DNA from: Minisyncoccota bacterium
GTDB lineage: Bacteria > Patescibacteriota > Microgenomatia > UBA1400 > PJMF01
Direction of reading: 5' to 3'
Length of the DNA stretch: 13,162 bases
Assembly (NCBI GenBank): GCA_014728425.1
Contig: WJLO01000062.1
Span: forward strand, 1 to 13,162
Positions 504-13,155 of the stretch are shown here, piece by piece (within the stretch, counting starts at the first letter, position 1; every line of letters starts with the position of its first letter). Position numbers and translations under genes: made by a program. The notes beneath the pieces were generated by a model. The model had not been told where the DNA came from. It was given only the letters and a program-made list of their open reading frames with translations, and made no database searches.

Positions 504-517
504 ATTTAGTTAATCTA
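501..517. repeat. Inverted repeat made from two convergent stop codons
   Basis: TAGATT (501-506) and AATCTA (512-517) form a perfect 6-bp stem with a 5-base loop. The left arm begins with the TAG stop of the plus-strand gene. The right arm ends with the complement of the TAG stop of the minus-strand gene. The stem is AT-rich and has no clear U-tract on either side, so it is at best a weak shared terminator and may be chance. Confidence 0.35.
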
Positions 518-2275
518 CTGCCTAAGAGATTCTTTAAGTCGATCATACACATCTTCCATAGTTTGCTGTTGTTCTTGTTTCTTTCTTTCTTCTTCAGTTA
601 AGAGTTTTTTGTCTAATCTGTCTGTAATTAAATTGAACGCATCGGGTTGATCTGCGCCTACGTACCTAGAAGTCTTCGCTGCCATACCGGCTCCTTTAGA
701 CGCTCCCTGCTTGATGCCGCCGCTCATAATTGGTCTGCCCTGTTCATCAACCCCAACTTTTACACCCCTGTATACGCCTCCTGCCACCCCTCTGCCAATT
801 TTTGACAATCTTCTACTCATGCTTAAACCAGGGGCTGTTGCGGGAACAAGGGCGCCTATTCCGCCCCGCAGACCTCCCACAGCTCCTCCAGCTACACCGC
901 CTATACCAGTTCCTGCAATTCTTCCACCAAGAGGCAACCCTTCCTTGGTTTGAGCAATCGCTCCTTGCATCAACTCCCCAAACACCCCCTCTTTCGCTCC
1001 CATAGCCTCTTTGACTTTTTTGACAATTTCGGGAATGACCAAGATAATGCCAATCCCAACTAAAGAAACAATGACGCTGCCATTGCCTCGTCCTAACATG
1101 TAAGGGGGTAAAAAACCACCAGTTGTTAGTTCTGTCTCAACCATTTTGCGATGCATGATTAGAATCATCAACACCGTAGGAAAAGCAGCTAGGTTGCCCA
1201 TGATTCCTCTTGCCCAGGACCAAAAAGTATTTTTTCCTGGCAATGCTCCCATCATCAAAGCCAATGGAGCAAAAGCAATATTTAAGATAATGGCAATATA
1301 GGTTTTTAGTAGCTCAAAGAATAGTTTAAAAACACCAATAAGCACAGCAATTGAGACGATTAAGCCCACGGTTACTCCGCTTAACCAGCCAATTACATCA
1401 CCCACTGGGCCAGCTAGGGCTGACTGAACCAAGTGCTCAACAGCCCTCTTGGTGGAGTTAAAAACCGAAGGTCCAGAGCCGCCAGAGATTAGTTGTTCGG
1501 CAAGGCTAAAAATATGCATATCAATTAACTGAGTATCGCCTTGAAACAGGCCAATTAACAAATACATAACCAAGTACATAATATCAATCATGAGTCCAGC
1601 AATAGCGTAAGAAAAAGTTACAAATAACAAAGCTACGATAATATGAGGAATAGCTTGTTGGGCGGTAACCACGGTTTGGCCACTGATTTTGTGACGGAAC
1701 ATGATCATAAAGCCAATTATTAGAAAAATGCCCACAAAGAACAAATAAGCAACATTACGAAAGACTTTCCAGGTTTCTAAAATTGGGTCTAGAGCAGCAA
1801 AACCTAGCCCTTGGGCGTAGGCAGGTGGCACAATGTGAGCAGATTTCATAAGGTCTGCTACATAGGTTTGAGTGTTGGCTGGAGGGGTGTACATCCAAGC
1901 AATGGCGCCGCCCAGATCACCAATAGCCCCTCGCCCGTAAGTTTGATAAGCAATTTGTTTTTGTTCTTCAGTAAAAGTTACCCCAGGCTGTTCTACTACT
2001 TCTTCAGCGCCCACTATTCTGAGCATAATATCGGCCATAAAATGACCATTGTTATTGCCTACACTTTTTCCTGAGTTAGGATTGGTGGCGGCTACTCCCT
2101 CAACTTGTTTAACTAGCTCTTGATTGGTGTCTCCAGCAGCGGTATAAGCATTAACAACTGCATCATTGAGTCGGTCAAAAAAGCTGTCTTGAGCCTTGGC
2201 TGGCTGGGCAAGCCTAAAACTAGCACCCAGCATCACCATTAAAATCAACAACACCCAGATGAGTTTTTTGCGCAT
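515..2275 (-). CDS. TrbL/VirB6-like polytopic membrane protein (T4SS-like)
   Basis: This 586-residue protein looks like the inner-membrane channel component of a type IV secretion-like apparatus. Residues 1-28 form a signal peptide (cleavage probably after AKA). A soluble segment of about 140 residues follows. Hydrophobic segments lie near 173-193, 207-243 (two spans), 300-345 (two spans), about 360-374 and 400-418. The stretch around 330-360, with APLALMMGALPG followed by FWSWARG, resembles the conserved core of TrbL/VirB6-type proteins from CPR genomes, from family memory. Residues 430-540 are a Gly/Ala-rich tail with basic residues, ending in a charged helix (about 553-586), probably cytoplasmic. 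The ATG at 2275 is supported by a promoter that ends 6 bases upstream. The gene shares its strand with the two pilin-like genes and the glycosidase/lysozyme gene, but the DHH-like gene on the opposite strand separates it from them. An alternative is a generic polytopic envelope protein. Confidence 0.75.
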   Translation of the reverse strand: MRKKLIWVLLILMVMLGASFRLAQPAKAQDSFFDRLNDAVVNAYTAAGDTNQELVKQVEGVAATNPNSGKSVGNNNGHFMADIMLRIVGAEEVVEQPGVTFTEEQKQIAYQTYGRGAIGDLGGAIAWMYTPPANTQTYVADLMKSAHIVPPAYAQGLGFAALDPILETWKVFRNVAYLFFVGIFLIIGFMIMFRHKISGQTVVTAQQAIPHIIVALLFVTFSYAIAGLMIDIMYLVMYLLIGLFQGDTQLIDMHIFSLAEQLISGGSGPSVFNSTKRAVEHLVQSALAGPVGDVIGWLSGVTVGLIVSIAVLIGVFKLFFELLKTYIAIILNIAFAPLALMMGALPGKNTFWSWARGIMGNLAAFPTVLMILIMHRKMVETELTTGGFLPPYMLGRGNGSVIVSLVGIGIILVIPEIVKKVKEAMGAKEGVFGELMQGAIAQTKEGLPLGGRIAGTGIGGVAGGAVGGLRGGIGALVPATAPGLSMSRRLSKIGRGVAGGVYRGVKVGVDEQGRPIMSGGIKQGASKGAGMAAKTSRYVGADQPDAFNLITDRLDKKLLTEEERKKQEQQQTMEDVYDRLKESLRQ

Positions 2276-2281
2276 AAGGGT

Positions 2282-2310
2282 ATTGTAAAACAGTCAAGAG
2301 TAAGAAACAA
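2282..2310 (-). promoter_or_regulatory. Promoter of the TrbL/VirB6-like gene, near-leaderless
   Basis: On the minus strand TTGTTT (2310-2305) is followed by a 17-base spacer and TACAAT (2287-2282). Only 6 bases then precede the ATG at 2275. Transcription starting at the usual distance would begin at or within one base of the start codon. No Shine-Dalgarno is present. Confidence 0.6.
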
Positions 2311-2339
2311 GTTTTTGTTCGAGAAAGTTTTTACTACTT

Positions 2340-2368
2340 TGTTGTTAAACCACTACTTTTCAACAACA
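2340..2368. repeat. Inverted repeat in divergent intergenic region
   Basis: TGTTGTT (2340-2346) pairs perfectly with AACAACA (2362-2368) across a 15-base loop. It lies between the divergent TrbL-like and DHH-like genes, just upstream of a TATAGT at 2380-2385. It could be an operator for one or both promoters. There is also a short direct repeat, ACTACTTT, at 2333-2340 and 2352-2359. The functional claim is speculative. Confidence 0.3.
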
Positions 2369-2419
2369 TAAAAATCGTTTATAGTGGGTCAAAGTAAAGC
2401 TCAATATTACTCCTGCCGT

Positions 2420-2425
2420 TATAGT
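2420..2425 (+). promoter_or_regulatory. Candidate -10 of the DHH-like gene
   Basis: TATAGT lies 13 bases before the ATG at 2439, predicting a leader of only about 5-7 bases. A second TATAGT at 2380-2385 has TTTCAA (2358-2363) 16 bases upstream and could be an alternative promoter with a leader of roughly 47 bases. No good -35 is visible for the nearer one and no Shine-Dalgarno precedes the ATG. Confidence 0.35.
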
Positions 2426-2438
2426 TTGTCTTTAAGTT

Positions 2439-3446
2439 ATGATCGAGCCAACCACCCTTACTAATTTAAAAGAGCTGATTAACCAATCACAAACCATTTT
2501 GGTAATTTTTGGCACTAAAGCCAAGATGGATCAATTAATGTCTGCTACTAGTTTGTTTTTGGGTCTCAAACAAATAGGCAAAGATGTTAGTTTACTAGCA
2601 CCACAACAACCCAATCCCAGTAACCCTGTTTTAGCACAACAACTTAAACAAGCAGCTGGCTTGAATGAGCTGAAAACCGAGCTGGGTAAACAAAACCTGG
2701 TAGTGAGTTTTGATTACAGTAAAACAGCAGTGGATAATGTAAGTTATCACATTAGTGAACAAACCAATAAGTTTTACCTAACTATTAAGCCGCAAAAAGG
2801 ACATTCGCCTTTGGATAGCAGCAAGGTGGAGTTTTCTTATGCTGGTGCTCAGGCAGACTTGATTTTTTTAGTAGGAGAGTATCAGTTAGAAGAACTTGAT
2901 CAGCTTTATTATGGTTATGAGGGTTTGTATGAAGACACAGCCATGGTAACAGTTCATAGCTTTGAGCCAGAAATCGGCAACATTAAACTAGATGTTTCAC
3001 ATCAAACCAGCATGAGTGAAGCCATGGTTGAGGTTTTGGAAGGCATGGGTATTGGCTTAGATGCTGATATGGCCACTAATTTGTTAATGGGTATTGAAAA
3101 CGTTACTCAAAGCTTTAAGTCACGAATAACTACTGCAGCAACTTTTGAAGTAGCTGCTAAGTTAATGAGAATGGGAGCAAGGCGAGTAAAAACACAAGCG
3201 TCTTCAGTAACCACTGTTCAGCCTCAGGGCAAAATCAAAGCCAGTAAGTCTCAAGTTAAAGAGCTTAAGCCTGGTCAAGAGATCAAGCAGTTGAAACAAC
3301 AGCAGGTCGTTAAAGATCGAGGTAAGCAAAATCCCCAACAGTTGCAAAAAAAACCTCAGCAAGCTAGCAGGCGTCAAAAACAATCACAGCAAAAATCATC
3401 ATCTGCAAAGAAAAAGCAACATCGATCCAATGGCATGAGGCGCTAG
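2439..3446 (+). CDS. Degenerate DHH-family protein with basic Gln/Lys-rich tail
   Basis: The 335-residue protein has the outline of a DHH/DHHA1 phosphoesterase of the NrnA type. An opening strand-helix unit (residues 18-54, ILVIFG then LFLGLKQIGKDV) matches the usual first motif. Residues 187-248 (HQTSMSEAMVEVLEGMGI, then DADMATNLLMGI, then SFKSRITTAATFEVAAKLMRMGA) match the family's Ser/Thr-helix and substrate-side region. The metal-binding residues appear lost: the first motif, normally H-x(3)-PDxD, reads GTKAKMDQL; no DHH triad is visible; and the DTxxF position reads VTQSF. It is therefore probably catalytically inactive. From about residue 250 the chain becomes a low-complexity, strongly basic Q/K/S-rich tail, which suggests binding to nucleic acid or another polyanion. 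An in-frame stop just upstream (2433-2435) fixes the ATG at 2439. It converges on the next gene with a 7-base gap. The fold call is fairly secure; the role is unknown. Confidence 0.7.
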   Translation: MIEPTTLTNLKELINQSQTILVIFGTKAKMDQLMSATSLFLGLKQIGKDVSLLAPQQPNPSNPVLAQQLKQAAGLNELKTELGKQNLVVSFDYSKTAVDNVSYHISEQTNKFYLTIKPQKGHSPLDSSKVEFSYAGAQADLIFLVGEYQLEELDQLYYGYEGLYEDTAMVTVHSFEPEIGNIKLDVSHQTSMSEAMVEVLEGMGIGLDADMATNLLMGIENVTQSFKSRITTAATFEVAAKLMRMGARRVKTQASSVTTVQPQGKIKASKSQVKELKPGQEIKQLKQQQVVKDRGKQNPQQLQKKPQQASRRQKQSQQKSSSAKKKQHRSNGMRR

Positions 3447-3453
3447 TTTTTGT

Positions 3454-6400
3454 TTAATGGATGTCACAGTATGCTGGCTGAGCAGTGGCCCAAGGATTCC
3501 AGTTGGTCCCTCCAGTAGAGATACGCATAGCTTCTTTAATGTTGTTTTCTGGATTAGCCATGTTGTTGCTGCATTTATCGACTTGGGACTGATCAACTAG
3601 TATTTCACAACTTGGCGGTTCCCAAGAATAGTTAAAGTATTCTGAGCAGCTATGAGCAAGCAGGTTGATTTGAAACAATCCTACACTGTAGTCAACAGAG
3701 CTGCCATCAGTGCAACCTTTATTAATAGAGTTGGCATTACCACCGCTTTCGGCATTACAAATAATAGAGGCATTGGTAGCTCGTTGAGTCAAAGTGCTTT
3801 CGTCTAACTGACCCTCCTCTCCGAGTTTTTCGTTCCAGTAAGCCTGAATATATGGTTTTAAGTTGTCCACACTGCAGGGATTATTGTTATCGGTGATTGG
3901 TGCACAACGCTCTTGATTAAAATTAGTACTACCATTATAAGGCAGCCCATCTGGGGTGCCATATTTTTGCTGCGTGTTGCCTTTGCACCGTCCTAAAAAC
4001 AAATCTTCAACTCGCTGGCAGGAGCGAACATACTCCCAAGCTTCTGTGCCATGCTCTCTTAAATTTTCTTGAAGTTTACGAATCATCCAGCCCAGTTTAG
4101 CACCAGGAATGTATAGGCCTACATTGTGATCGTCCAGCTTGATGGCAAAGCTACGACATTTTACTGGCTCACAAATTGTTTCACAAGTTTTTTCACCAGT
4201 AGATCTATCAACATGGCAAGACTCTTGACAACTATTGTTGCATCTATCTGGATCGTAAAAATGCTCTTCTGCTTTGCTGCTGTAGCCAAACTCAACTTGA
4301 TCGATGGGGAAAAATTTTGGCAGACCGCTTTTGCCTTCAGCATCGGGTAAAACACTGCTTGCTTTCATCTGCTCAAAATCTGCTGTGGTAAAAAAGCTGC
4401 GCAAGGTTTCTTCAATATAGGTAAGATTGGCGCCAATTGGGGCTACTATATAAGTGCGCAACTGAACTCCTTGTTTGTTATCTTGCCCCTGGATTTTTTT
4501 TTGCACTTCAGCCACATCTTTGAACTTTAAGGCCCAGCCAAAAGTAGCCGAACGCCTAGAAGGCTCTGGCTCATTGTCTTTAACAACAATGCCAGAAAAG
4601 TAGTCAATGTTGCCAGCTCTAAGATCACCACTTTTATCATGTTTAGCATCGCCGCTAACTTTAGCAGGCGAGCCAATATCGCCAGCAAGCTCGGCAGAGC
4701 CAATTGGATTAGTAAAGTAAGTTTTTTCTGCTAAAGAAAACATATCGTCTGGCAGCTCTTCGCTGTGTTCGCAAGAATTTTTATAAGCGTTAATGATGTC
4801 CACCAAAGATTGGTTAAGAGCTCCAGTTTCATGAGCTCCTTCTTGTGGCATGCCAGCAAAGTCAATTAACAATTCCAGCTTAACAGCCTCATCCTGGGAT
4901 CTGGTGCGCATTTCTTGAGCCTCAAGCGCACGGCCATAAAGTTTGTCTCTGCGCTTAGCTTCGTTTTCGGCAATGCTGTTATTAACTTCCTGTTTTCTTA
5001 AGGAGTCGGTAACGATCTCAGCGGTATCTTGATAATTATTTAAACTATGAGCTCGATTGGTAGTAAAATCGGGAATTTTAAAAGCAATAAAGATCGGTGC
5101 ATGTTTGGGTTTATTGATATAGGGGGCAGCACAACCAGCCTCTGGATTGCCAGTGTGACTAAATAAAAACCAAAACGGATCTGCCTTGTTTTTACCAGCG
5201 CAAGCCAAATGAGTAATAGGTTGGTCGTCAGTGTCATTGAGTGGAGCAATCACTAAAAAAGCCAGACGATAAACTCGGTCTAGATTGAGTGACATGTTTT
5301 GAAAACCCTGCTTAAGGGTGGTAAATCTTTCTTGATCAAAGTTAGTAATGGTGTTGCTATCCCAAGGTTGGGAGAGATAGTTGCAAGCTAGCTGATCAGA
5401 AGCAAGGGATTTGCCCACTCCATCGGCTTTAAACTCTTCAAAATCTTTAAGTAAGCTTTGTTGAGCAGCAAATTCGGGATCTCGTTCAAAATCGGGAGGA
5501 AAAACATCAGGGGTGGGTTTATATAAATAGTAGTCGGTGTTAGGAATTGGTTGGCGAAGGGCACAGCTGATGGGGTTTTCAAGCATGTCACACATTTTTT
5601 TAGCAGTGCGCAGGTTGTTGACTTTGATTATGCACTGTTGTTTTAGAGTAAGGAAAGAGTTGGCCACTCCGCTATTAACAGGATCAGAGCTGTTTTCTGG
5701 ATCAATAGCGCCAAAATAACCTTCAAAAGAAGAGGTTTTATGGGTTTGATCTTCTGCCTCTTGGCCACGAAACATAGGTATAGTTGCTTGCATAAAATTG
5801 CCTTTAGCTTGACCATCGGCGCCCATGGTGGTACCAACTTCTTTAATTTGCGGATTGAGATCAATAAATCTTTTTAAAGCATCAGGGCTAGTTAACTCTT
5901 TAGTAATGCGTAAAGCTGGACTAGGGCAGTAGGCTTGATAGCCCTGATCAACTACTAAGTTATGAGTGAGCAAGCGTACTCGATCCTGACCGGCAGCGTC
6001 TGCCAAAGGTTCGGCTAGGTCAAGTGGATAAAGATAGTACTCGCTGGGGTCGCGCCAGGCAGTGGGTGTTGAGCCATCTAGGGGGGTTGACAAGGCGTCA
6101 CAGTTGTCGGGGTTAACTTCTTCACCAAATTGAGTAAACAACTTGCCGTTGATGTAAATTAACCATTCACCAGCCTGATTAAGATTGCTACAAACATTTC
6201 TAACTAGGGGAGTAATGTGCACAGCACCAGTGCCACTAGCTTGATTTTCAATAAACTGCACAACCTTGTTGAGATTTGCATCAGGAGGAGCGTTTCCCCC
6301 AGGAGAAAGCGAAAACTCAGTGAGGTAGAGTTGGGCATTGGTCGTACCCTGTAGACCAGTGTTTTGGGTGTTGGTATTTAAAGGCTGACAGCTTTGAGTA

Positions 6401-6993
6401 TCATCGCCAATACAACCATAAGCATTGGCTGTTCGCACCGAAGCATTTTGATAGATCCTCGTCATGCCTGGAGTTTGAAAAAAATCACCGTCAGGAGGAT
6501 AGTCGGCATTATACCAGTCTAGCGCCGAAGGAGAGATATTGGAAAATTTTTGATTAACAGCATTGTAGTTGGTGACATATTGCCCCCAGTTAGAACACTC
6601 ACGAGCTTGATTGTTAATCTCATTGCCAAAGGTTACTAAAGCATCTTGGCCAAAAGCGTCTTTAACTTTTTGCACAACAGTAACGCTCTCACTTGGGGAG
6701 ATCTCGCAAACACGATTAATTCTTATAATTGGGTAGTAATTATGTGCTTGGATTGCTGCTGCTAAGCGATTAATATCATCAGCACTAGTATTACTATCAA
6801 TCATTAGCGTTACAGGAAAGCCATCATTAGCTCCATTTGCTGGCAGGACCTGATTAATGATGTGCACTTGGCCATTGATGTCACCCACGCCAAGGTGGGT
6901 GCCAGTATTAGCCAAGACGGTTTGGGTGAGGTAACTTAATAGAGTCAAGCCAACCAACACCACTCCGATAAGCTTGCCACCTCGGTTTAACAT
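3454..6993 (-). CDS. Secreted GH-A-like glycosidase plus lysozyme/lytic transglycosylase fusion
   Basis: I start this protein at the ATG at 6993 (1179 residues), not the in-frame ATG at 7002, because a TATAAT covers 7006-7001 and lies 7 bases before 6993. The start gives a compact signal peptide (residues 1-28, ending VLA). Residues about 45-300 look like a clan GH-A TIM barrel: FGNEIN at 122-127 has the typical acid/base Asn-Glu (E125), and LYLTEF at 222-227 has the nucleophile-like Glu (E226). A long middle region of unknown fold follows, with a charged helical stretch (about 660-715) and a six-Cys cluster at 918-946. Residues 1065-1179 are lysozyme/SLT-like: Glu in CNAESGG (E1082), SVGLFQIN (about 1103-1110) and WNPW (1165-1168). 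No membrane anchor other than the signal peptide is seen. The lysozyme domain and the pilin-like neighbours suggest a VirB1-like role in opening peptidoglycan. The glycan target of the barrel is unknown. Confidence 0.8.
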   Translation of the reverse strand: MLNRGGKLIGVVLVGLTLLSYLTQTVLANTGTHLGVGDINGQVHIINQVLPANGANDGFPVTLMIDSNTSADDINRLAAAIQAHNYYPIIRINRVCEISPSESVTVVQKVKDAFGQDALVTFGNEINNQARECSNWGQYVTNYNAVNQKFSNISPSALDWYNADYPPDGDFFQTPGMTRIYQNASVRTANAYGCIGDDTQSCQPLNTNTQNTGLQGTTNAQLYLTEFSLSPGGNAPPDANLNKVVQFIENQASGTGAVHITPLVRNVCSNLNQAGEWLIYINGKLFTQFGEEVNPDNCDALSTPLDGSTPTAWRDPSEYYLYPLDLAEPLADAAGQDRVRLLTHNLVVDQGYQAYCPSPALRITKELTSPDALKRFIDLNPQIKEVGTTMGADGQAKGNFMQATIPMFRGQEAEDQTHKTSSFEGYFGAIDPENSSDPVNSGVANSFLTLKQQCIIKVNNLRTAKKMCDMLENPISCALRQPIPNTDYYLYKPTPDVFPPDFERDPEFAAQQSLLKDFEEFKADGVGKSLASDQLACNYLSQPWDSNTITNFDQERFTTLKQGFQNMSLNLDRVYRLAFLVIAPLNDTDDQPITHLACAGKNKADPFWFLFSHTGNPEAGCAAPYINKPKHAPIFIAFKIPDFTTNRAHSLNNYQDTAEIVTDSLRKQEVNNSIAENEAKRRDKLYGRALEAQEMRTRSQDEAVKLELLIDFAGMPQEGAHETGALNQSLVDIINAYKNSCEHSEELPDDMFSLAEKTYFTNPIGSAELAGDIGSPAKVSGDAKHDKSGDLRAGNIDYFSGIVVKDNEPEPSRRSATFGWALKFKDVAEVQKKIQGQDNKQGVQLRTYIVAPIGANLTYIEETLRSFFTTADFEQMKASSVLPDAEGKSGLPKFFPIDQVEFGYSSKAEEHFYDPDRCNNSCQESCHVDRSTGEKTCETICEPVKCRSFAIKLDDHNVGLYIPGAKLGWMIRKLQENLREHGTEAWEYVRSCQRVEDLFLGRCKGNTQQKYGTPDGLPYNGSTNFNQERCAPITDNNNPCSVDNLKPYIQAYWNEKLGEEGQLDESTLTQRATNASIICNAESGGNANSINKGCTDGSSVDYSVGLFQINLLAHSCSEYFNYSWEPPSCEILVDQSQVDKCSNNMANPENNIKEAMRISTGGTNWNPWATAQPAYCDIH

Positions 6994-7000
6994 AACCACC

Positions 7001-7006
7001 ATTATA
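7001..7006 (-). promoter_or_regulatory. -10 element giving a leaderless start at 6993
   Basis: A perfect TATAAT on the minus strand (7006-7001) is followed by 7 bases (GGTGGTT) and the ATG at 6993. The last two bases of the hexamer are the first two bases of the alternative ATG at 7002, so that codon would not be transcribed from this promoter. The -35 region is poor (TTCTGT at 7029-7024, spacing 17). Confidence 0.6.
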
Positions 7007-7055
7007 AATGATTAAGCAAAGAGACAGAAGTCCGGCACAAGAGAATTGATTAGGT

Positions 7056-7637
7056 TTAATTACCCAAAATTGGCACGTTAAAAATTGTTTCTATTAGCCA
7101 GATAATCCAGTAGGAGACAAACAAAAGAGCAAAGCCAATTACAGCAGCAGTAGCGCGTTGTTTGCCCGCATCCATGGATTTTTTACTGGCAGCTCCAGTG
7201 ATCATTTCAAAGCCGCCCCAAATCAACATGACAAACAAAATCAAACCAGCAAGAGGAAAGGCAAAGAAAATAATCCGATTGATGATTCCGGCTGGAGTAG
7301 AGAGCTCGTCAGCAAAAGGGGAGTTGGTAGTGTTAAGAGGATTGAGGGAGTTGAGTAAGTCTTGAGTGACTGTAGCATTGTCTGTTGAGTCGGGGGTTGC
7401 TGAACAGGTTCTGCCAAAATCTGATTCTTGACCAGTGAGCCAGCCACAGCAGAATTCTCGAGACAATCCGTTGTCATACTCAACCATTCCACTAGAACAG
7501 TTACAGCTATCTTCGTTTTGATTCCAAAAAGAAATATCCATATGGTGGCCACATTCGTAAACATGAGCAAAAGCTGGTTGAATACTAATGAGACTTAATA
7601 TTAGAAATAGGAGAATGTATTTTAGAGATTTCATCAT
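7056..7637 (-). CDS. T4SS pilin-like membrane protein, small
   Basis: This 193-residue protein has a signal peptide (1-24, ending AFA), a short extracellular Cys-rich segment (Cys 29, 45, 47, 63, 64 and 78) and an Asn/Thr-rich linker. Two membrane segments follow (about 119-144 and 163-185), separated by a small basic loop (SKKSMDAGKQR). The TPAGIINRIIFF entry, the GGFEMITGA turn and the final hydrophobic helix ending NVPILGN are the pattern of the VirB2-like T4SS pilin family seen in CPR bacteria (from memory, Pfam T4SS_pilin). It starts 17 bases after the stop of the larger pilin-like gene, so the two are likely co-transcribed. A weaker -10-like TACAAC (7650-7645) stands 7 bases before the ATG and could add an internal start. 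ATG codons at 7637 and 7634 are adjacent; I chose the first. The family call is fairly secure; pilus assembly is inferred. Confidence 0.75.
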   Translation of the reverse strand: MMKSLKYILLFLILSLISIQPAFAHVYECGHHMDISFWNQNEDSCNCSSGMVEYDNGLSREFCCGWLTGQESDFGRTCSATPDSTDNATVTQDLLNSLNPLNTTNSPFADELSTPAGIINRIIFFAFPLAGLILFVMLIWGGFEMITGAASKKSMDAGKQRATAAVIGFALLFVSYWIIWLIETIFNVPILGN

Positions 7638-7644
7638 TACTTTG

Positions 7645-7650
7645 GTTGTA
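7645..7650 (-). promoter_or_regulatory. Weak internal -10-like hexamer before small pilin-like gene
   Basis: TACAAC (7650-7645) is followed by 7 bases and the ATG at 7637, matching the spacing at other genes here. It lies just beyond the stop of the upstream gene, and the 17-spaced position reads CCCGGG, which is not a -35. It is listed only because the spacing fits the local pattern. Confidence 0.2.
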
Positions 7651-7654
7651 TTTT

Positions 7655-8572
7655 TTAAGTCCCAAATCCCGGGATATGTAAAACTGTTACGCCAATAAAT
7701 TGCAAGATTGTGATCGAAAAAATAATAAAGATTAACCCAATTATTGCTGAGGTAATTATGTCTTTGGCTTCTTGTACTCTTTTGGGGTCTCCCTGAGAAA
7801 CCGACAACTGAAAGGCCGAGGTAAGAATTAGCAGTAAAGCCACTCCGCCAGCGACCAAAAGCCCTATTCTTACCACTACAGCAATAATGCTTTCTACTTT
7901 AGTAGGAATACAACCTACTGCTGTCCAAATTCCAGCGGCAGCACCATCTTCGTTAAGGGCACACTCTTCACATTTTTGTTGTAAGTCTGGATCGGCGATT
8001 TGTTGACACAAGTTAAATGGAGTATTAAGAAACTCAGTTACTGGCGTGGGCTCGCCAACACATTCTTCTGGAGCGCATTTTTTACTGATGACAATATCAA
8101 ATCTGCAAAACTCAGGACATGAGCTAAATTTTGCAGTAGAGCAAATTCGTGGCCCAGTGTCCTCGCGCACAGAAATATTGTAAGTTCGATCCTCTCCACC
8201 AGGATTTCCGTCAAAGCCTTTTACAATACAGTCATCCATAACTCCATCAGTAACTGAGTTTTTACAAATCCCTATTCTAGTGCCGCCAATGCTGATAAAA
8301 GCTTCGCCATTAAGAGGTTTGCCGTTTTTGGTTAAGCCGCTTACTTTAATTGTGGTTTGTACGTCTTGCTGCAAACATTGACCAATGCCACCAAAACATT
8401 GCCACAAAGTACCAGGTCCATCTATGTCGGGGATATGTTGTTCTACATAAATTTCACCGCAGCCTCTTTCATCGCTTGCTAAAGCTTTAGTCTGGTTAGC
8501 AATAACAAGCCCCGCCATCATTAAAAAAAAGAGTGTTAATCGAAAAATTATCCTATTTGTTTTCTTCCCCAT
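7655..8572 (-). CDS. T4SS pilin-like membrane protein with Cys-rich ectodomain
   Basis: This 305-residue protein has a signal peptide (about 1-32) and an extracellular domain (about 38-175) rich in Cys. Within that domain the VSGLTKNGKPLNGEAFISI stretch looks like a carboxypeptidase-regulatory/Cna-B type beta-sandwich. A linker with paired cysteines follows (QQKCEECALNEDG, about 198-210), then a WTAVGCIPT motif. Two C-terminal membrane segments (about 228-252 and 273-297) flank the loop QGDPKRVQEAKDIITS, and the chain ends HIPGFGT. That C-terminal module closely fits the T4SS pilin-like proteins of CPR genomes, which carry diverse ectodomains, as I recall them. It is first in a two-gene unit with the small pilin-like gene 17 bases downstream. 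A promoter ends 7 bases before the ATG; the GGA near the ATG is too close to act as a Shine-Dalgarno. It could be a tip or accessory subunit rather than the main pilin. Confidence 0.75.
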   Translation of the reverse strand: MGKKTNRIIFRLTLFFLMMAGLVIANQTKALASDERGCGEIYVEQHIPDIDGPGTLWQCFGGIGQCLQQDVQTTIKVSGLTKNGKPLNGEAFISIGGTRIGICKNSVTDGVMDDCIVKGFDGNPGGEDRTYNISVREDTGPRICSTAKFSSCPEFCRFDIVISKKCAPEECVGEPTPVTEFLNTPFNLCQQIADPDLQQKCEECALNEDGAAAGIWTAVGCIPTKVESIIAVVVRIGLLVAGGVALLLILTSAFQLSVSQGDPKRVQEAKDIITSAIIGLIFIIFSITILQFIGVTVLHIPGFGT

Positions 8573-8579
8573 GTCCTAT

Positions 8580-8608
8580 ATTTTACCTGATTTCAGTCTT
8601 GACGTCAG
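8580..8608 (-). promoter_or_regulatory. Leaderless promoter of the pilin-like operon
   Basis: On the minus strand CTGACG (8608-8603) is followed by a 17-base spacer, TAAAAT (8585-8580), 7 bases and the ATG at 8572. The -35 overlaps an 8-bp palindrome TGACGTCA (8600-8607), which could be a regulator site. Confidence 0.5.
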
Positions 8609-8710
8609 CAGCAGATCTCGGCCTCTGGGGTTTTTAAACACGGTTTTGTAAGGTTGATTGTGGTTTTTGAAATTTTGGATTTGCTCTGCAAATTAAGGTT
8701 TTGATTGCGC

Positions 8711-8716
8711 TATAAT
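8711..8716 (+). promoter_or_regulatory. -10 element giving a leaderless start of the SpoIID gene
   Basis: A perfect TATAAT is followed by 7 bases (TGGCTTA) and the ATG at 8724. The -35 position holds no recognisable hexamer. No Shine-Dalgarno precedes the gene. The rest of 8573-8723 holds only the divergent promoter and AT-rich sequence. Confidence 0.65.
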
Positions 8717-8723
8717 TGGCTTA

Positions 8724-10517
8724 ATGACAAAAAACCAGTTAAGATGGTTAGTTAAGTTTGTTGGTCAAAACTTGTTGGCAGTTAGTTCAGGATTGGTGAT
8801 GCTGGTGGGCTTGACTGGTTTTGTTTTGTGGTGGCGGCCGCCGATTTCTTTTGCTGTAGACCCGGTTGAGGAACTACAGCAACAGATTGATGAGTTAGAG
8901 CGCCTCAAAAAGATGAGCGAAGACGCAACCAAGCCCTTGGAAGATCAGTTACAAGATTTGGAAAAACGTATTAAAAACGCTCGTGCTGGCATAGCGGTGG
9001 CCAAAAACCAAGCTCGAGCACTAGCCCAAGACATTGAAAAAAGAGAAGAGGATTTAGCCATTCATTATGCTATTTTATCGAACCGTGTAGCAGATCAGTA
9101 CAAACGTCAACGTACTTTTTCGCCGATTATGCTGTTTTTAGCAGCAGATGATGCTTCCCAACTAGCCAAAGATCTAGCTTATCGTAACTCAGTGCAGGCT
9201 CAAGATCAACGCTTGATCGATAGCATTGCTCAAGACCTAGCTCAACTAGAAGCAGATAAGGCTAAATTAGAACAAGACCAAATTCGGCTGGCAGCTTTAG
9301 AAAAACAACTAAATGATCAGGCTGAGTTTTTCCGAGTTGAGGTAGAAAAAGCCAAGGACTATCAGCAAGTGCTTTCAAGTCAAATTGCTGAGTTAAGCGC
9401 AGCTCAGGAGGCAATTATCAATGCTCGTTCAGGAACTTATACTACCTCAGTGGGCGAGGTGCCCTTGGCTGATGACTTTAACGCCTCAATTGCTTTTAAA
9501 GCTCAAGCGCCAGGTAATTCTTTTGCAGCATTTAGCTTTGGGGCTTACACGCATCGCAATGGCATGAGTCAGTATGGCGCTAAAGCCCGTGCTGAAAGCG
9601 GTCAGAGTGTAGAAGAAATTCTCAAAGCTTATTATCCCAATGCTACCTTAAAAAAAGACTATCCGGTTATGGGTAGCATTACTGTTGATGGTGTAGGTAC
9701 GATTCTTTTTGAAGATCAGTATTTGCAAGGAATTTATGAAATGCCCGCTAGCTGGTCTATTAATGCTTTAAAAGCTCAAGCCATTGCTGCCCGCACTTAT
9801 GCAGTCAAGTATACTGATAATGGCAGCCGCTCGATCTGCACCACTGAGTCATGTCAGGTTTTTAAAAACAGTAAAAAAGGCGGTGATTGGGAAAAAGCAG
9901 TTAACGAAACCAAGGGTTGGGTTTTAGTTGACGGTGGCGGTAACCCAGTTTCAACTCAGTATGCCTCAACTCACGGTGGTTATGCCAACACTAGCGGTTG
10001 GGACACCACTGACAAAAGCAACTCAGGTGATTGGAGCACTCGTGCTTGGGAAAACAAAGCTGGCAGCCCCTGGTTTTATAAAGCTTGGTATCGTTCTGGT
10101 TACAGTGCTAGCGGGGCTAACTGTGGACGTGCTCACCCTTGGCTTTCGCAAGAAGAATTTAGCGACATTATTAATGCTTGGATTGTGCGCAAAAACCCCA
10201 ATGGAGCTGATGTTGGTCGTATTCAGCCAGTAACTATTAATCAGTGCCAAATTGGTGGTCAGGGCGGCGATCCTTATTCCATTAGTGAACTGCGTAGTAA
10301 GGCTGATAACTCTGGAGGAGCAGTAACCAATGTTTCTAGCGTTAGTGTTAGCCACAACAACAATGGTCAAACTGTCAATGTTCATTTGGAAACTAATCGC
10401 GGGAGTTTAGACATCCCTGGCTCAGAGTTTAAAGAGGCTTTTAACTTGCGCGCTCCGGGTTACTTGCGCATTCCGCAAAGCCGCTTTGCTTTTTTTAACA
10501 TTGAGCACAAAAATTAA
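8724..10517 (+). CDS. Coiled-coil plus SpoIID/LytB-domain peptidoglycan protein
   Basis: This 597-residue envelope protein has an N-terminal hydrophobic segment (about 17-36, possibly a long signal peptide ending near ISFA). A long coiled coil (about 46-232, Glu/Lys/Gln heptads) follows, resembling those of CwlO/EnvC/PcsB-type wall regulators. Residues about 265-425 are a SpoIID domain: FSFGAYTHRNGMSQYGA (about 271-286), then YLQGIYEMPASW, whose Glu (E339) aligns with the family's catalytic glutamate, then LKAQAIAARTYA. Cys372 and Cys377 (CTTESCQ) lie where SpoIID zinc ligands are expected, from memory, and STHGGYA is near 415. SpoIID enzymes are lytic transglycosylases that cleave stem-peptide-free glycan. 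Here the domain continues with about 170 C-terminal residues. CPR bacteria do not sporulate, so a role in division or wall remodelling is more likely than engulfment. It is divergent from the pilin-like operon and sits 37 bases from the convergent Phd-like gene. Confidence 0.85.
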   Translation: MTKNQLRWLVKFVGQNLLAVSSGLVMLVGLTGFVLWWRPPISFAVDPVEELQQQIDELERLKKMSEDATKPLEDQLQDLEKRIKNARAGIAVAKNQARALAQDIEKREEDLAIHYAILSNRVADQYKRQRTFSPIMLFLAADDASQLAKDLAYRNSVQAQDQRLIDSIAQDLAQLEADKAKLEQDQIRLAALEKQLNDQAEFFRVEVEKAKDYQQVLSSQIAELSAAQEAIINARSGTYTTSVGEVPLADDFNASIAFKAQAPGNSFAAFSFGAYTHRNGMSQYGAKARAESGQSVEEILKAYYPNATLKKDYPVMGSITVDGVGTILFEDQYLQGIYEMPASWSINALKAQAIAARTYAVKYTDNGSRSICTTESCQVFKNSKKGGDWEKAVNETKGWVLVDGGGNPVSTQYASTHGGYANTSGWDTTDKSNSGDWSTRAWENKAGSPWFYKAWYRSGYSASGANCGRAHPWLSQEEFSDIINAWIVRKNPNGADVGRIQPVTINQCQIGGQGGDPYSISELRSKADNSGGAVTNVSSVSVSHNNNGQTVNVHLETNRGSLDIPGSEFKEAFNLRAPGYLRIPQSRFAFFNIEHKN

Positions 10518-10554
10518 GGAGAGGTTTCTAATAGGTTTTTCAAGCTAATTGATT

Positions 10555-11121
10555 TTACGGCACCAAGACTCGTTTAAGATTAAATTGTTTAACACTAGTT
10601 GGTGGTTGCGGTGGTTTAAGCCTAGTTGCAGCAGGCTGAGTATTAGCAGGGGTTTTTGCTTGCTGAGTTGTTTTTTGAGCTGATTGTTGCTGTTGTTGGT
10701 TTTTAAGCAAAGCTTGTTTTAAAGCCTCAGTGGTAGCTGAGGTTTGCTTATTAGATAAAGACGACGAAGCTGGCTTGGATGACTGATCTGTGGTTTTTGT
10801 TTGTGTCTGTTTGGTTGACTGACTGGTTTCGCTTGCCTGCTTGGTTTGCTCAAAAGGAGTGGGTCGCAAATGAGTGGGTGGTGTAGGTGGCTTGATTTGA
10901 GCTGTTTCTGGACGAACTGGTTGTTTAGAAGGTTGTTGAGTCATTGGTTTGGCTGCTTTAGTGTTTTCAGCTGGAGACTTACTAGTAGTTGAACCTTGGT
11001 GGGGAATGATTTTAGCCAGAGGTTTAGATCGATAAATCAGTAAATAAGACTTGCCTTTGCGCAAGCCTTTTTTAATAGGAGTAAAGTTTTCCCGCAACTC
11101 CTTCATGGAAATAATTTGCAT
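10555..11121 (-). CDS. Phd/YefM-like N-terminal domain with long low-complexity tail
   Basis: Residues 1-42 of this 188-residue protein (IISMKELRENFTPI, then KGKSYLLIYRSKPLAKIIP) match the N-terminal DNA-binding half of Phd/YefM antitoxins. In those proteins a short toxin-binding segment usually follows and the whole chain is about 80-90 residues. Here instead there are about 130 residues rich in Gln, Thr, Lys, Ser and Pro, followed by a short ordered-looking end (QFNLKRVLVP). No toxin-sized frame follows or precedes it on the same strand. It may be a stand-alone transcription regulator rather than an antitoxin. A TTAAGATTA repeat array covers its promoter, consistent with self-repression as in Phd-type proteins. 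The start is set by TTGACA/TAATCT with 7 bases to the ATG. It converges with the SpoIID gene. The domain call is fairly secure and the function is open. Confidence 0.65.
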   Translation of the reverse strand: MQIISMKELRENFTPIKKGLRKGKSYLLIYRSKPLAKIIPHQGSTTSKSPAENTKAAKPMTQQPSKQPVRPETAQIKPPTPPTHLRPTPFEQTKQASETSQSTKQTQTKTTDQSSKPASSSLSNKQTSATTEALKQALLKNQQQQQSAQKTTQQAKTPANTQPAATRLKPPQPPTSVKQFNLKRVLVP

Positions 11122-11125
11122 AGTA

Positions 11126-11149
11126 TTAAGATTAGCTTAAGATTATCTT
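11126..11149. promoter_or_regulatory. Operator-like repeats over the Phd-like promoter
   Basis: TTAAGATTA occurs twice (11126-11134 and 11137-11145), with an 11-base period close to one helical turn. Two perfect inverted repeats overlap it: TTAAG/CTTAA (11126-11130 and 11136-11140) and AAGAT/ATCTT (11139-11143 and 11145-11149). The array covers the -10 and most of the spacer of the minus-strand promoter. Phd/YefM proteins are known to repress their own promoters through short repeated sites. Confidence 0.5.
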
Positions 11150-11158
11150 TGTTGTCAA
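11129..11158 (-). promoter_or_regulatory. Promoter of the Phd-like gene, leaderless
   Basis: On the minus strand a perfect TTGACA (11158-11153) is followed by 18 bases, a weak -10 TAATCT (11134-11129), 7 bases and the ATG at 11121. The strong -35 and the spacing support it although the -10 is poor. No Shine-Dalgarno is present. Confidence 0.5.
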
Positions 11159-11283: not shown

Positions 11284-13155
11284 CTAACTTCCCACCCCCA
11301 CCAAATACTTGGCGCTCCAGGGTTGATAAGTAGAAGTGTATTTATCTTTACGAATGATGTTGCCGTTTTTGTCTTTTACCACATTAACAAATGAGGCGCT
11401 AATACCACTAGCAGCCCAATCAATCTGTTTTTTGGCACCAGGTGGTAAGGAAGGGTCAGGAATGTATACTGGAGGTGGTGGTGGACGATAGCCCCAAACT
11501 TGATGATCTACAATTTCAGTAGTGCGACCATCAGAGGTGCCGTAAAGCTCTACTGTCATATAAAGATTTTGGCTATCTGTAGTAGTGTGCACCAAAATAT
11601 GATGATCAGTGTCATTAATAAAGCGCAGATCAGTGTCTCCAGCATAAACAGTAGCATCAACTCCAGGCTTTTGATTATACTCATAATAACTGACTCGATA
11701 GCTATGGGGCAGGCGTCGAGTAATTGGTAGGCCAGCATCTAAAGCAGCCCGAAAAGTAGTAGTGCTGATTTGACAAACTCCACCGCCTTCGGCCAAAACA
11801 GTAGCTCCGCCTTGGATAATATAAGCAGGTTTAAAGCCAGTGCTGCTGGAGACTTCACCCACAGCTCGATTAACTGAAAACTCTGCTCCTGGTTTGATAA
11901 TAGCGAGATCAAGTTTGTTAGCAGCTACAGCTACGTTGTGAATTCGGCTGGGGATGGAATGATAATAATAACTATCACCAAAACCAATGAGTTCACTAAT
12001 GCCAAGATTGTTAGTATCGGCTAGTGTGATTTGCGGGTCTGTAGTTTTCACTGCTAGTTCGTAGCGATAGGGCTCTTGTTGGTCAAGGGTTTGTGAATCA
12101 GCTTGACTAATTTGTGTAAGTAGTTGTTTAAGTTGTTGCTGTAGGCTTTTTTCATCTACAACTAAACCTTGGCGGTGAGGAACAAATTTAGTGACTTGTA
12201 AAGTTTGCGGATCATAATCAAACTCAGCATTAGTGGGCTGTTGATCAAGTTGTTTTTTCCAAGCTTGAATAAGTTTTTCTGCTGCTAGCTCATTAAGCTG
12301 AGGTGGTTGGCTAACTGGCAGATTAAGTAAAGGCACTAAATCAATGTCTTCTAAAGTAAGCGTGAGGCGTTGTGATTCAGTGTTGATTTTAAACACTGCT
12401 TGTTGGTTAATGATTTTTTTGCCTAACTCATAAGCTTGATCAATTTGTGATTGATTAAGCTGAGCACCAATAGAAGCTACCTGGGCTTTGACTTTAATAA
12501 CTATTTTTTGTTGAGGTAAAGTAGTTTGAAAGTCATGATAATGAAGCTGCTCAAGAATTTTTTCTGAAGTAGCAGCTACTTGCAGCTGTCGTCCCACTTT
12601 GCCAGCTTCAACCCGAAGGCTAGCTGCTGAGCCAGAACGACCTAAGCTAATCTGTGGCATTTTGTCTGGATAGTCGATCTGCTGCTTGAGTTGGTTAATC
12701 ATCTCAGCCAAACTAGCTGCTTCATAAGCAGTGTCGCTGTAAAAATATTGGGGTTGTTGTTTGAGTTTGAAGATTTGCCACAGTCTTTGAATAGGAAAAC
12801 CACTTCGTCCTACCTCAAAAGCTTGTGCTAAAGCTGGCTGGTAGTCTTGATATTGGCCAAGTTGGCTAGAGTCAGAAGCAATTTTAACCTCATCAACAGC
12901 TAGTTCTAGATGATATTGCTTTAATAGGGGTTGTTGGTTTTTAGCAGTGATTAACTTAACAGCCTCGCTTCTGGTTAGGCCGCCAAGATGAAGGCCATCA
13001 AGATAAACTCCTTGATAAAATTTGTTTTGATAACTGTAAAAGAAAAAGCCGCTAGCTAGGATGCTGATAACAACCAGGCCCAATAAAGTGCCGCTCAACC
13101 AGGCTTTGAAACTAGCAGGCAATGCAGACTTGATCATCGAGGCAAAAACAGACAT
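11284..13155 (-). CDS. VanW-family protein with peptidoglycan-binding-like repeats
   Basis: This 623-residue protein has an N-terminal cytoplasmic stub and one membrane anchor (about 20-41). Two alpha/beta regions follow (about 45-215 and 225-350) that resemble the YoaR/PG_binding_4 repeats found in front of VanW domains. The VanW domain spans about 385-520, with SRIHNVAVAA, PGAEFSVN and the signature GGGVCQISTTTF (457-468). A Pro-rich linker (PPPPP near 558) leads to a C-terminal region (GAKKQIDW to KYLVGVG) that looks G5-like. The family is common in Gram-positive-type and CPR envelopes and is thought to act in cell-wall maintenance; its reaction is not established, and its presence does not mean vancomycin resistance. 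Only 7 bases before the ATG at 13155 lie in the window, so its promoter cannot be seen. The stop is 162 bases before the Phd-like start on the same strand. Length and architecture are typical. Confidence 0.85.
   Translation of the reverse strand: MSVFASMIKSALPASFKAWLSGTLLGLVVISILASGFFFYSYQNKFYQGVYLDGLHLGGLTRSEAVKLITAKNQQPLLKQYHLELAVDEVKIASDSSQLGQYQDYQPALAQAFEVGRSGFPIQRLWQIFKLKQQPQYFYSDTAYEAASLAEMINQLKQQIDYPDKMPQISLGRSGSAASLRVEAGKVGRQLQVAATSEKILEQLHYHDFQTTLPQQKIVIKVKAQVASIGAQLNQSQIDQAYELGKKIINQQAVFKINTESQRLTLTLEDIDLVPLLNLPVSQPPQLNELAAEKLIQAWKKQLDQQPTNAEFDYDPQTLQVTKFVPHRQGLVVDEKSLQQQLKQLLTQISQADSQTLDQQEPYRYELAVKTTDPQITLADTNNLGISELIGFGDSYYYHSIPSRIHNVAVAANKLDLAIIKPGAEFSVNRAVGEVSSSTGFKPAYIIQGGATVLAEGGGVCQISTTTFRAALDAGLPITRRLPHSYRVSYYEYNQKPGVDATVYAGDTDLRFINDTDHHILVHTTTDSQNLYMTVELYGTSDGRTTEIVDHQVWGYRPPPPPVYIPDPSLPPGAKKQIDWAASGISASFVNVVKDKNGNIIRKDKYTSTYQPWSAKYLVGVGS

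Follow-up and report, generated by a model that had tools for sequence, protein, structure and literature searches.

Start-proximal -10-like boxes at a fixed spacing point to leaderless mRNAs beside Shine-Dalgarno initiation in Patescibacteria

The stretch of DNA analysed here, referred to as the window, comprises positions 1 to 13,162 of contig WJLO01000062.1 (G000:C47:1-13162) in the assembly GCA_014728425.1 of a Minisyncoccota bacterium. This source genome, G000, has 846,113 bases in 124 contigs and is 81% complete; other G numbers denote relatives and L numbers denote loci. Our subject is a hexamer resembling a promoter -10 element that recurs a few bases upstream of start codons in the window, and which a preliminary description, made from the letters of the window, had taken as a sign that most genes are transcribed without a leader. 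Throughout, the gap is the number of bases between the -10-like hexamer and the start codon. The window holds the following genes and boxes.

515..2275, minus strand: protein of 586 amino acids without a Pfam hit
2282..2287, minus strand: -10-like box TACAAT, gap 6 to the ATG of gene 515-2275
2420..2425, plus strand: TATAGT, gap 13 to the ATG of gene 2439-3446, an exception to the spacing
2439..3446, plus strand: protein of 335 amino acids without a Pfam hit
3454..6993, minus strand: large protein with a lysozyme-like SLT_3 domain
7001..7006, minus strand: -10-like box TATAAT, gap 7 to the ATG at 6993, overlapping an alternative ATG at 7002
7056..7637, minus strand: T4SS pilin family protein (PF18895)
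7645..7650, minus strand: weak box TACAAC, gap 7 to the ATG of gene 7056-7637, within the 17-base space behind the upstream gene
7655..8572, minus strand: T4SS pilin family protein (PF18895)
8580..8585, minus strand: -10-like box TAAAAT, gap 7 to the ATG of gene 7655-8572
8711..8716, plus strand: -10-like box TATAAT, gap 7 to the ATG of gene 8724-10517
8724..10517, plus strand: SpoIID-domain protein
10555..11121, minus strand: protein of 188 amino acids without a Pfam hit
11129..11134, minus strand: -10-like box TAATCT, gap 7 to the ATG of gene 10555-11121
11153..11158, minus strand: -35-like box TTGACA, 18 bases from TAATCT
Start at 13155: VanW gene, 7 bases off the window end, its upstream region lying outside the window

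All six boxes that the preliminary description had placed before the starts at 2275, 6993, 8572, 8724, 11121 and 7637 are real, each at the position and spacing that it gave. An exact TANNNT occupies gap 6 or 7 in five of the seven testable window genes; the TACAAC at 7637 is not a TANNNT. The contention that chance is unlikely is borne out when these upstream regions are simulated by a first-order Markov model, five or more boxes arising in 4 of 100,000 trials (mean 0.45), with the caveat that these starts were picked by the preliminary description and that the frame 3454-7002 has its 5'-most ATG at 7002. Two genes had been omitted from it: the one at 2439, whose box has gap 13, and the VanW gene that starts at 13155. 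As had also been stated, no boxed start has a usable Shine-Dalgarno (SD) site, the sole AGGA, at 8572, ending 1 base before the ATG. The -35 hexamers at 17-18 bases that had been claimed for three boxes reduce to one, the perfect TTGACA at a spacing of 18 for the start at 11121; the rest are weak, with CTGACG at 8572 (4/6 match, spacing 17) and matches of at most 3/6 at spacings of 16-19 for the other boxes.

Whole-genome counts of a hexamer, a gap and an ATG are independent of gene calls and of the choice of start. In G000, TANAAT lies 6 or 7 bases before an ATG 145 times, as against 55 times at gaps 17/18 and 75 times at gaps 27/28 (p 2.9e-11). Over 37 genomes, namely G000 and 36 members of its family and order, the total is 5577 against control totals of 2809 and 2842, and the count exceeds both controls in 37/37 genomes, with p<0.01 in 36 of them (p 0.015 in G003). 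The genome-wide positional -10 peak near starts, which had been proposed as a check on the window, is present in G000 and in these 36 relatives.

A second test used starts chosen blind to the motif, in 425 kb of G000 and in nine Patescibacteria sets overall (G000, G003, G009, G014, G026, G040, G205, 12 WWE3 loci and 58 other named loci), with coupled and non-coupled genes kept apart. Among the non-coupled genes of G000, TANNNT at gap 6/7 precedes 36 of 193, where 14.1 are expected (about 7% per gene; p 7e-7). An excess is present in the non-coupled genes of the other eight sets too, the weakest being G040 (9/53 vs 3.7, p 0.014) and G014 (15/101 vs 6.5). The same procedure gave no excess in 100 kb of E. 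coli (1/47 vs 2.4 expected) and a positive result in 150 kb of Deinococcus deserti (9/69 vs 1.3).

In coupled genes of G000, the box was found in 5/69 against 2.5 expected. In 8/9 sets, coupled genes show a smaller excess than non-coupled ones (for example -0.4% vs 20.8% in G205 and 3.7% vs 11.4% in G000), the significance of these differences not having been computed. This distribution bears on the possibility that promoters next to the start play a minor or conditional part and that the proteins are made mostly from longer operon transcripts. The boxes of 7637 and 6993 do lie within a same-strand gene array, and coupled genes carry the box in G014 (5/32 vs 1.0; excess 12.5%, as against 8.4% in non-coupled genes, the exception among the nine sets) and in G026 (L221-L227; 10/47 vs 1.2, excess 18.7%). 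The high value in G026 suggests that promoters may lie within upstream coding ends. With the excess apparently lower in coupled genes in most sets, we consider the operon explanation unlikely.

The spacing was also modelled directly. A free mixture model yielded fractions that were worthless, its 'none' class having collapsed to 1-3%; its sole useful output was a spacer peak near 6-8, and it found no -10 motif in G040. A constrained mixture, which estimated what percentage of genes have a -10 within the allowed gap range of 5-10 and compared it with decoy frames, placed its sharpest peak at gap 6-7 in all eight Patescibacteria sets. The shares were 44% in G003 (decoys 2-7%), 45% in G009 (2-12%), 65% in G205 (6-18%), 64% in G026 (17-23%), 37% in G014 (9-23%) and 39% in G040 (3-13%), and, among further groups, 71% in WWE3 (20-33%), 95% in Collierbacteria (3-39%), 59% in Pacebacteria loci (18-67%) and 73% in Woesebacteria loci (11-64%). 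The estimates for G000 (67% vs 2-34%) and for the pooled loci (67% vs 54-68%) were rejected as spoiled by composition. The controls gave 13% with a flat gap distribution in E. coli (decoys 13-30%) and 16% with a peak at gap 6 in D. deserti (decoys 1-4%).

Sequences around the boxes resemble those of promoters. The triplet TGN precedes 105 of 331 boxes at gap 6/7 and 131 of 1415 at gap 20-45, a 3.4-fold enrichment (p 8e-23), which fits an extended -10 promoter and not a ribosome site. In the pooled 70 loci, G003, G026 and G205, the triplet TTG reaches a peak at precisely 17 bases upstream. Both signals belong to transcription, have no known part in ribosome binding and speak against the idea that the boxes are AT-rich, unstructured landing sites for the ribosome (S1-type, SD-less), -10-like by composition, on transcripts that begin further upstream. 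Such sites would agree with the A-rich composition at -11 to -8 and with the AT-rich signals, suggested to bind S1, in Bacteroidetes and other groups (PMC3160421), but the spacing of TANNNT is kept among SpoIID orthologues and the TGNTATAAT pattern is strongly gap-dependent, so that we judge this explanation very unlikely.

The TGNTATAAT pattern was counted in 192 evenly drawn Patescibacteria genomes, G000 included. At gap 6/7 before an ATG it occurs 2273 times, with at least one site in 184 genomes; the control at gap 17/18 gave 401 sites in 150 genomes. The count lies above the genome's own control in 172 genomes and equals it in 9, and 84/192 are individually significant at p<0.01. The TGN pattern has no match in the 324,711 bases of the D. 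deserti plasmid. It is a real possibility, to which we give somewhat less than even weight, that the fusion of an extended -10 promoter to the start codon is ancestral and phylum-wide in Patescibacteria, at least as heavily used as in Deinococcota and near the rule for first genes in some genera (those of G134 and G176). If so, this would be extreme streamlining, with promoter and translation start in one element.

As a separate observation, G134 and G176 (L246-L248), of about 700 kb each, hold 129 and 115 exact TGNTATAATN{6,7}ATG sites, where the gap 17/18 control gives 12 and 9, counts that suggest a putatively extreme reliance, in one genus, on leaderless promoters of the extended -10 type. 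In some 50 kb of G134, TATAAT lies 6-8 bases before the ATG in several genes and GGAG-type sites precede several others.

Conservation of the spacing was followed through the SpoIID protein of the window, which has up to 74% identity to a protein of Candidatus Pacebacteria CG2_30_36_39. An orthologue search gave 70 loci belonging to Microgenomates, WWE3, Dojkabacteria and their kin, or unclassified, and the starts were taken blindly as the 5'-most ATG. Judged by these hits, G000 itself would fall in the Microgenomates group of Patescibacteria. Of the 66 usable loci, 35 have TANNNT at gap 6 (25 loci) or gap 7 (10 loci), and at every other gap in the range 0-40 the box occurs 0-6 times. Of the 35 boxes at gap 6/7, 22 have a T at -3, 22 a G at -2 and 14 the stricter form TANAAT.

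From these sequence patterns we consider it very probable that the -10-adjacent boxes are promoters giving leaderless mRNAs, and that this is one of the major modes both in this lineage and across Patescibacteria, beside SD initiation. The usual distance from a -10 element to the transcription start is 6-7 bases. The boxes would be -10 elements of the sigma70/sigmaA type, in many cases extended by TGN or assisted by a -35 element, and we infer that they are active promoters at which RNA polymerase would start at the A that opens the start codon or within 1-2 bases of it. The resulting mRNA would have no leader, and its 5'-terminal AUG would presumably be where the ribosome initiates, as happens in other bacteria that make leaderless mRNAs. 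This mode would operate mostly in genes not directly behind another, the remaining genes being served by SD sites or coupling.

Several observations weigh against this reading. In the window, TGN is absent before all six boxes (0/6); no TTG peak at 17 is seen in G000, G009, G014 and G040; and the TGNTATAAT count falls below its own control in 11 of the 192 genomes. Among 32 usable starts of orthologues of the remaining window genes, only 3 have TANNNT at gap 6/7, so the exact spacing is seen to be conserved at SpoIID alone. Genes of G000 with a single plausible start show no box excess (7/49 vs 6.3) and carry an SD core in 16/49 against 1.0; the corresponding subset does have a -10 excess in seven other Patescibacteria sets. 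Starts chosen by homology gave a weak excess (2/26 vs 1.2 in G000). We did not lean on these 325 starts, as 65 were GTG or TTG and only 13 were coupled, which implies that many are internal codons. The single-start result and the expectation of about 7% per gene in G000 are what one would cite for chance combined with start choice, that is, AT-rich upstream DNA and starts freely picked by the preliminary description. With counts free of start choice still in excess across genome and phylum, we regard this as extremely unlikely in general; for single window genes, most of all the TACAAC at 7637, chance is possible.

The remaining contrary points belong to the nearest rival of the leaderless reading, namely real promoters whose transcripts start 1-10 bases before the ATG of many genes, giving ultra-short leaders and a non-SD initiation that is not strictly leaderless. 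Box counts at gap 8-12 are raised as well in non-coupled genes (33 vs 14.5 in G009 and 59 vs 35.3 in G003, for example). Relatives of the VanW gene have TANAAT upstream in 11 of 12 usable cases, at gaps within 10-28; gap 6-8 is not represented, and gap 13-17 accounts for 7. Likewise, 6 of 9 usable relatives of gene 2439 have TTGACA-17-TAAAAC upstream at gap 8 (five) or 9 (one), and 2439 itself, with TATAGT at gap 13, would have a leader of roughly 6 bases. Judging by the elevated gap 8-12 counts and by the VanW relatives, short leaders are part of the picture. As an account of the boxes as a whole, ultra-short leaders are possible but on the doubtful side, for the sharpest peak is at gap 6-7 both in the SpoIID orthologues and in the constrained model of eight sets, which admitted gaps 5-10 only.

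The VanW relatives (L001, L007, L008, L011, L019, L132, L237 and others) also have CTATT immediately 5' of the ATG in 7/12, and they make up a predicted recurrent short-leader arrangement without a box at gap 6/7.

Leaderless mRNAs, as we read the boxes, would exist alongside SD initiation. SD cores precede 44 of 193 non-coupled genes in G000 where 2.2 are expected, an excess of 22%, and are thus more strongly enriched than the -10 box (36 vs 14.1). The absence of an SD peak that had been predicted for this genome does not hold, as an SD-core peak stands beside the -10 peak. Nearest to a -10 signal without an SD signal are, among non-coupled genes, G026 (SD excess 2.4% vs -10 excess 26.9%), the 58 non-WWE3 loci (3.0% vs 16.7%) and G040 (0.6% vs 9.9%). 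The AGGAGG pattern was counted in the 192 genomes (9 in G000 vs 5 for the reversed pattern), a result judged by eye and not used. A pyrimidine at -1 is found in SD and -10 genes alike and does not separate the two classes.

Inspection of the 16S 3' end, another check that had been proposed, gave an intact CCTCC in 44 of 47 readable ends of other genomes, including all 17 readable 16S sequences of 20 family and order loci; 3/50 loci overall were unreadable, and no 16S was found in the 81% complete G000 assembly. With the anti-SD intact elsewhere and an SD signal in G000, SD initiation is likely intact. In three 16S 3' ends of the wider phylum (L173, L177 and L179; G213, G133 and G221), ATCTCC replaces CCTCC.

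The -10 and SD excesses are both present, so both modes coexist and neither emerges as a majority. The 80 exact TANAAT sites that G000 has in excess correspond to some 12% of about 640 genes, a number scaled up from 322 genes called in 425 kb. Scaling by the 14/35 share of TANAAT among SpoIID boxes, the total of leaderless-type genes in G000 may be near 200, or about 30%. The preliminary description is in this way partly supported as an interpretation. Its extension to 'most genes' and to a 'default mode' is unsupported, given the enriched SD cores, the intact anti-SD and the boxes further out at 2439 and VanW. The proposed rule for predicting start codons aids the choice of start and fails to predict all of them.

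Extensive leaderless transcription has reportedly been found in Mycobacterium tuberculosis with start sites mapped by experiment, which is a further bacterial case but in another phylum and with mapped starts, whereas those described here are predicted. A paper on GeneMarkS-2 is also said to have classed some 5,000 genomes, and it may bear on novelty. A TANNNT about 12 bp upstream was described as a sign of leaderless (TA-led) genes by Zheng et al. in 2011 from 953 bacterial genomes (PMC3160421). TA-led and SD-led genes are mixed within genomes there, TA-led genes being fewer where operon-distal genes abound, and its table gives Deinococcus-Thermus a TA-led share of 39.4%, the highest among the bacterial rows considered (PMC3160421). 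The position of TANNNT and the mixture with SD-led genes in one genome are alike in our case; the words 'candidate' and 'TM7' are absent from the main text of that paper.

In Deinococcus-Thermus, genes with a -10 motif have TANNNT about 6-7 bases before the reading frame, with an absent or very short 5'-UTR and no need for a -35; they make up nearly a third of D. radiodurans genes, alongside genes with GGAG-type ribosome-binding sites (PMC12340547). The spacing from hexamer to start and the presence of SD-type genes in the same genome are shared with Patescibacteria. Unlike that group, Patescibacteria are mostly AT-rich and TGN is frequent, whereas TGN occurs in 0/10 such boxes of D. deserti; moreover, the Deinococcus-Thermus motif was examined by mutation and binding (PMC12340547) and the present one is known from sequence. 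The 2025 domain-wide scan in the same paper excluded unclassified and symbiotic species, and Patescibacteria were probably left out of it. Among the matches listed in a search of the open-access literature, there was no report of leaderless genes in Patescibacteria; one paper mentions that YchF, which is retained in Patescibacteria, promotes leaderless translation elsewhere, the other passages inspected being bibliography entries or unconnected uses of the terms. The arrangement itself is already known from Deinococcota, Actinobacteria and others, and what is new here is the very large lineage, in which its use is probably heavy.

A very large share of bacterial diversity lies in Patescibacteria, few of which are cultivable. 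Their gene starts, secretion signals and promoters are predictions, much of them built around SD sites. A leaderless class of fixed spacing would put start codons right, supply promoters to the genetic tools of cultivated members, and inform the question of how the reduced ribosomes of Patescibacteria initiate.

A Pfam scan of the 8 window proteins gave matches in 5 and none in 3. One of the latter, the protein encoded at 10555-11121, has the N-terminus MQIISMKELRENF followed by a Q/T/P-rich remainder; this N-terminus presumably resembles a Phd/YefM-type antitoxin.

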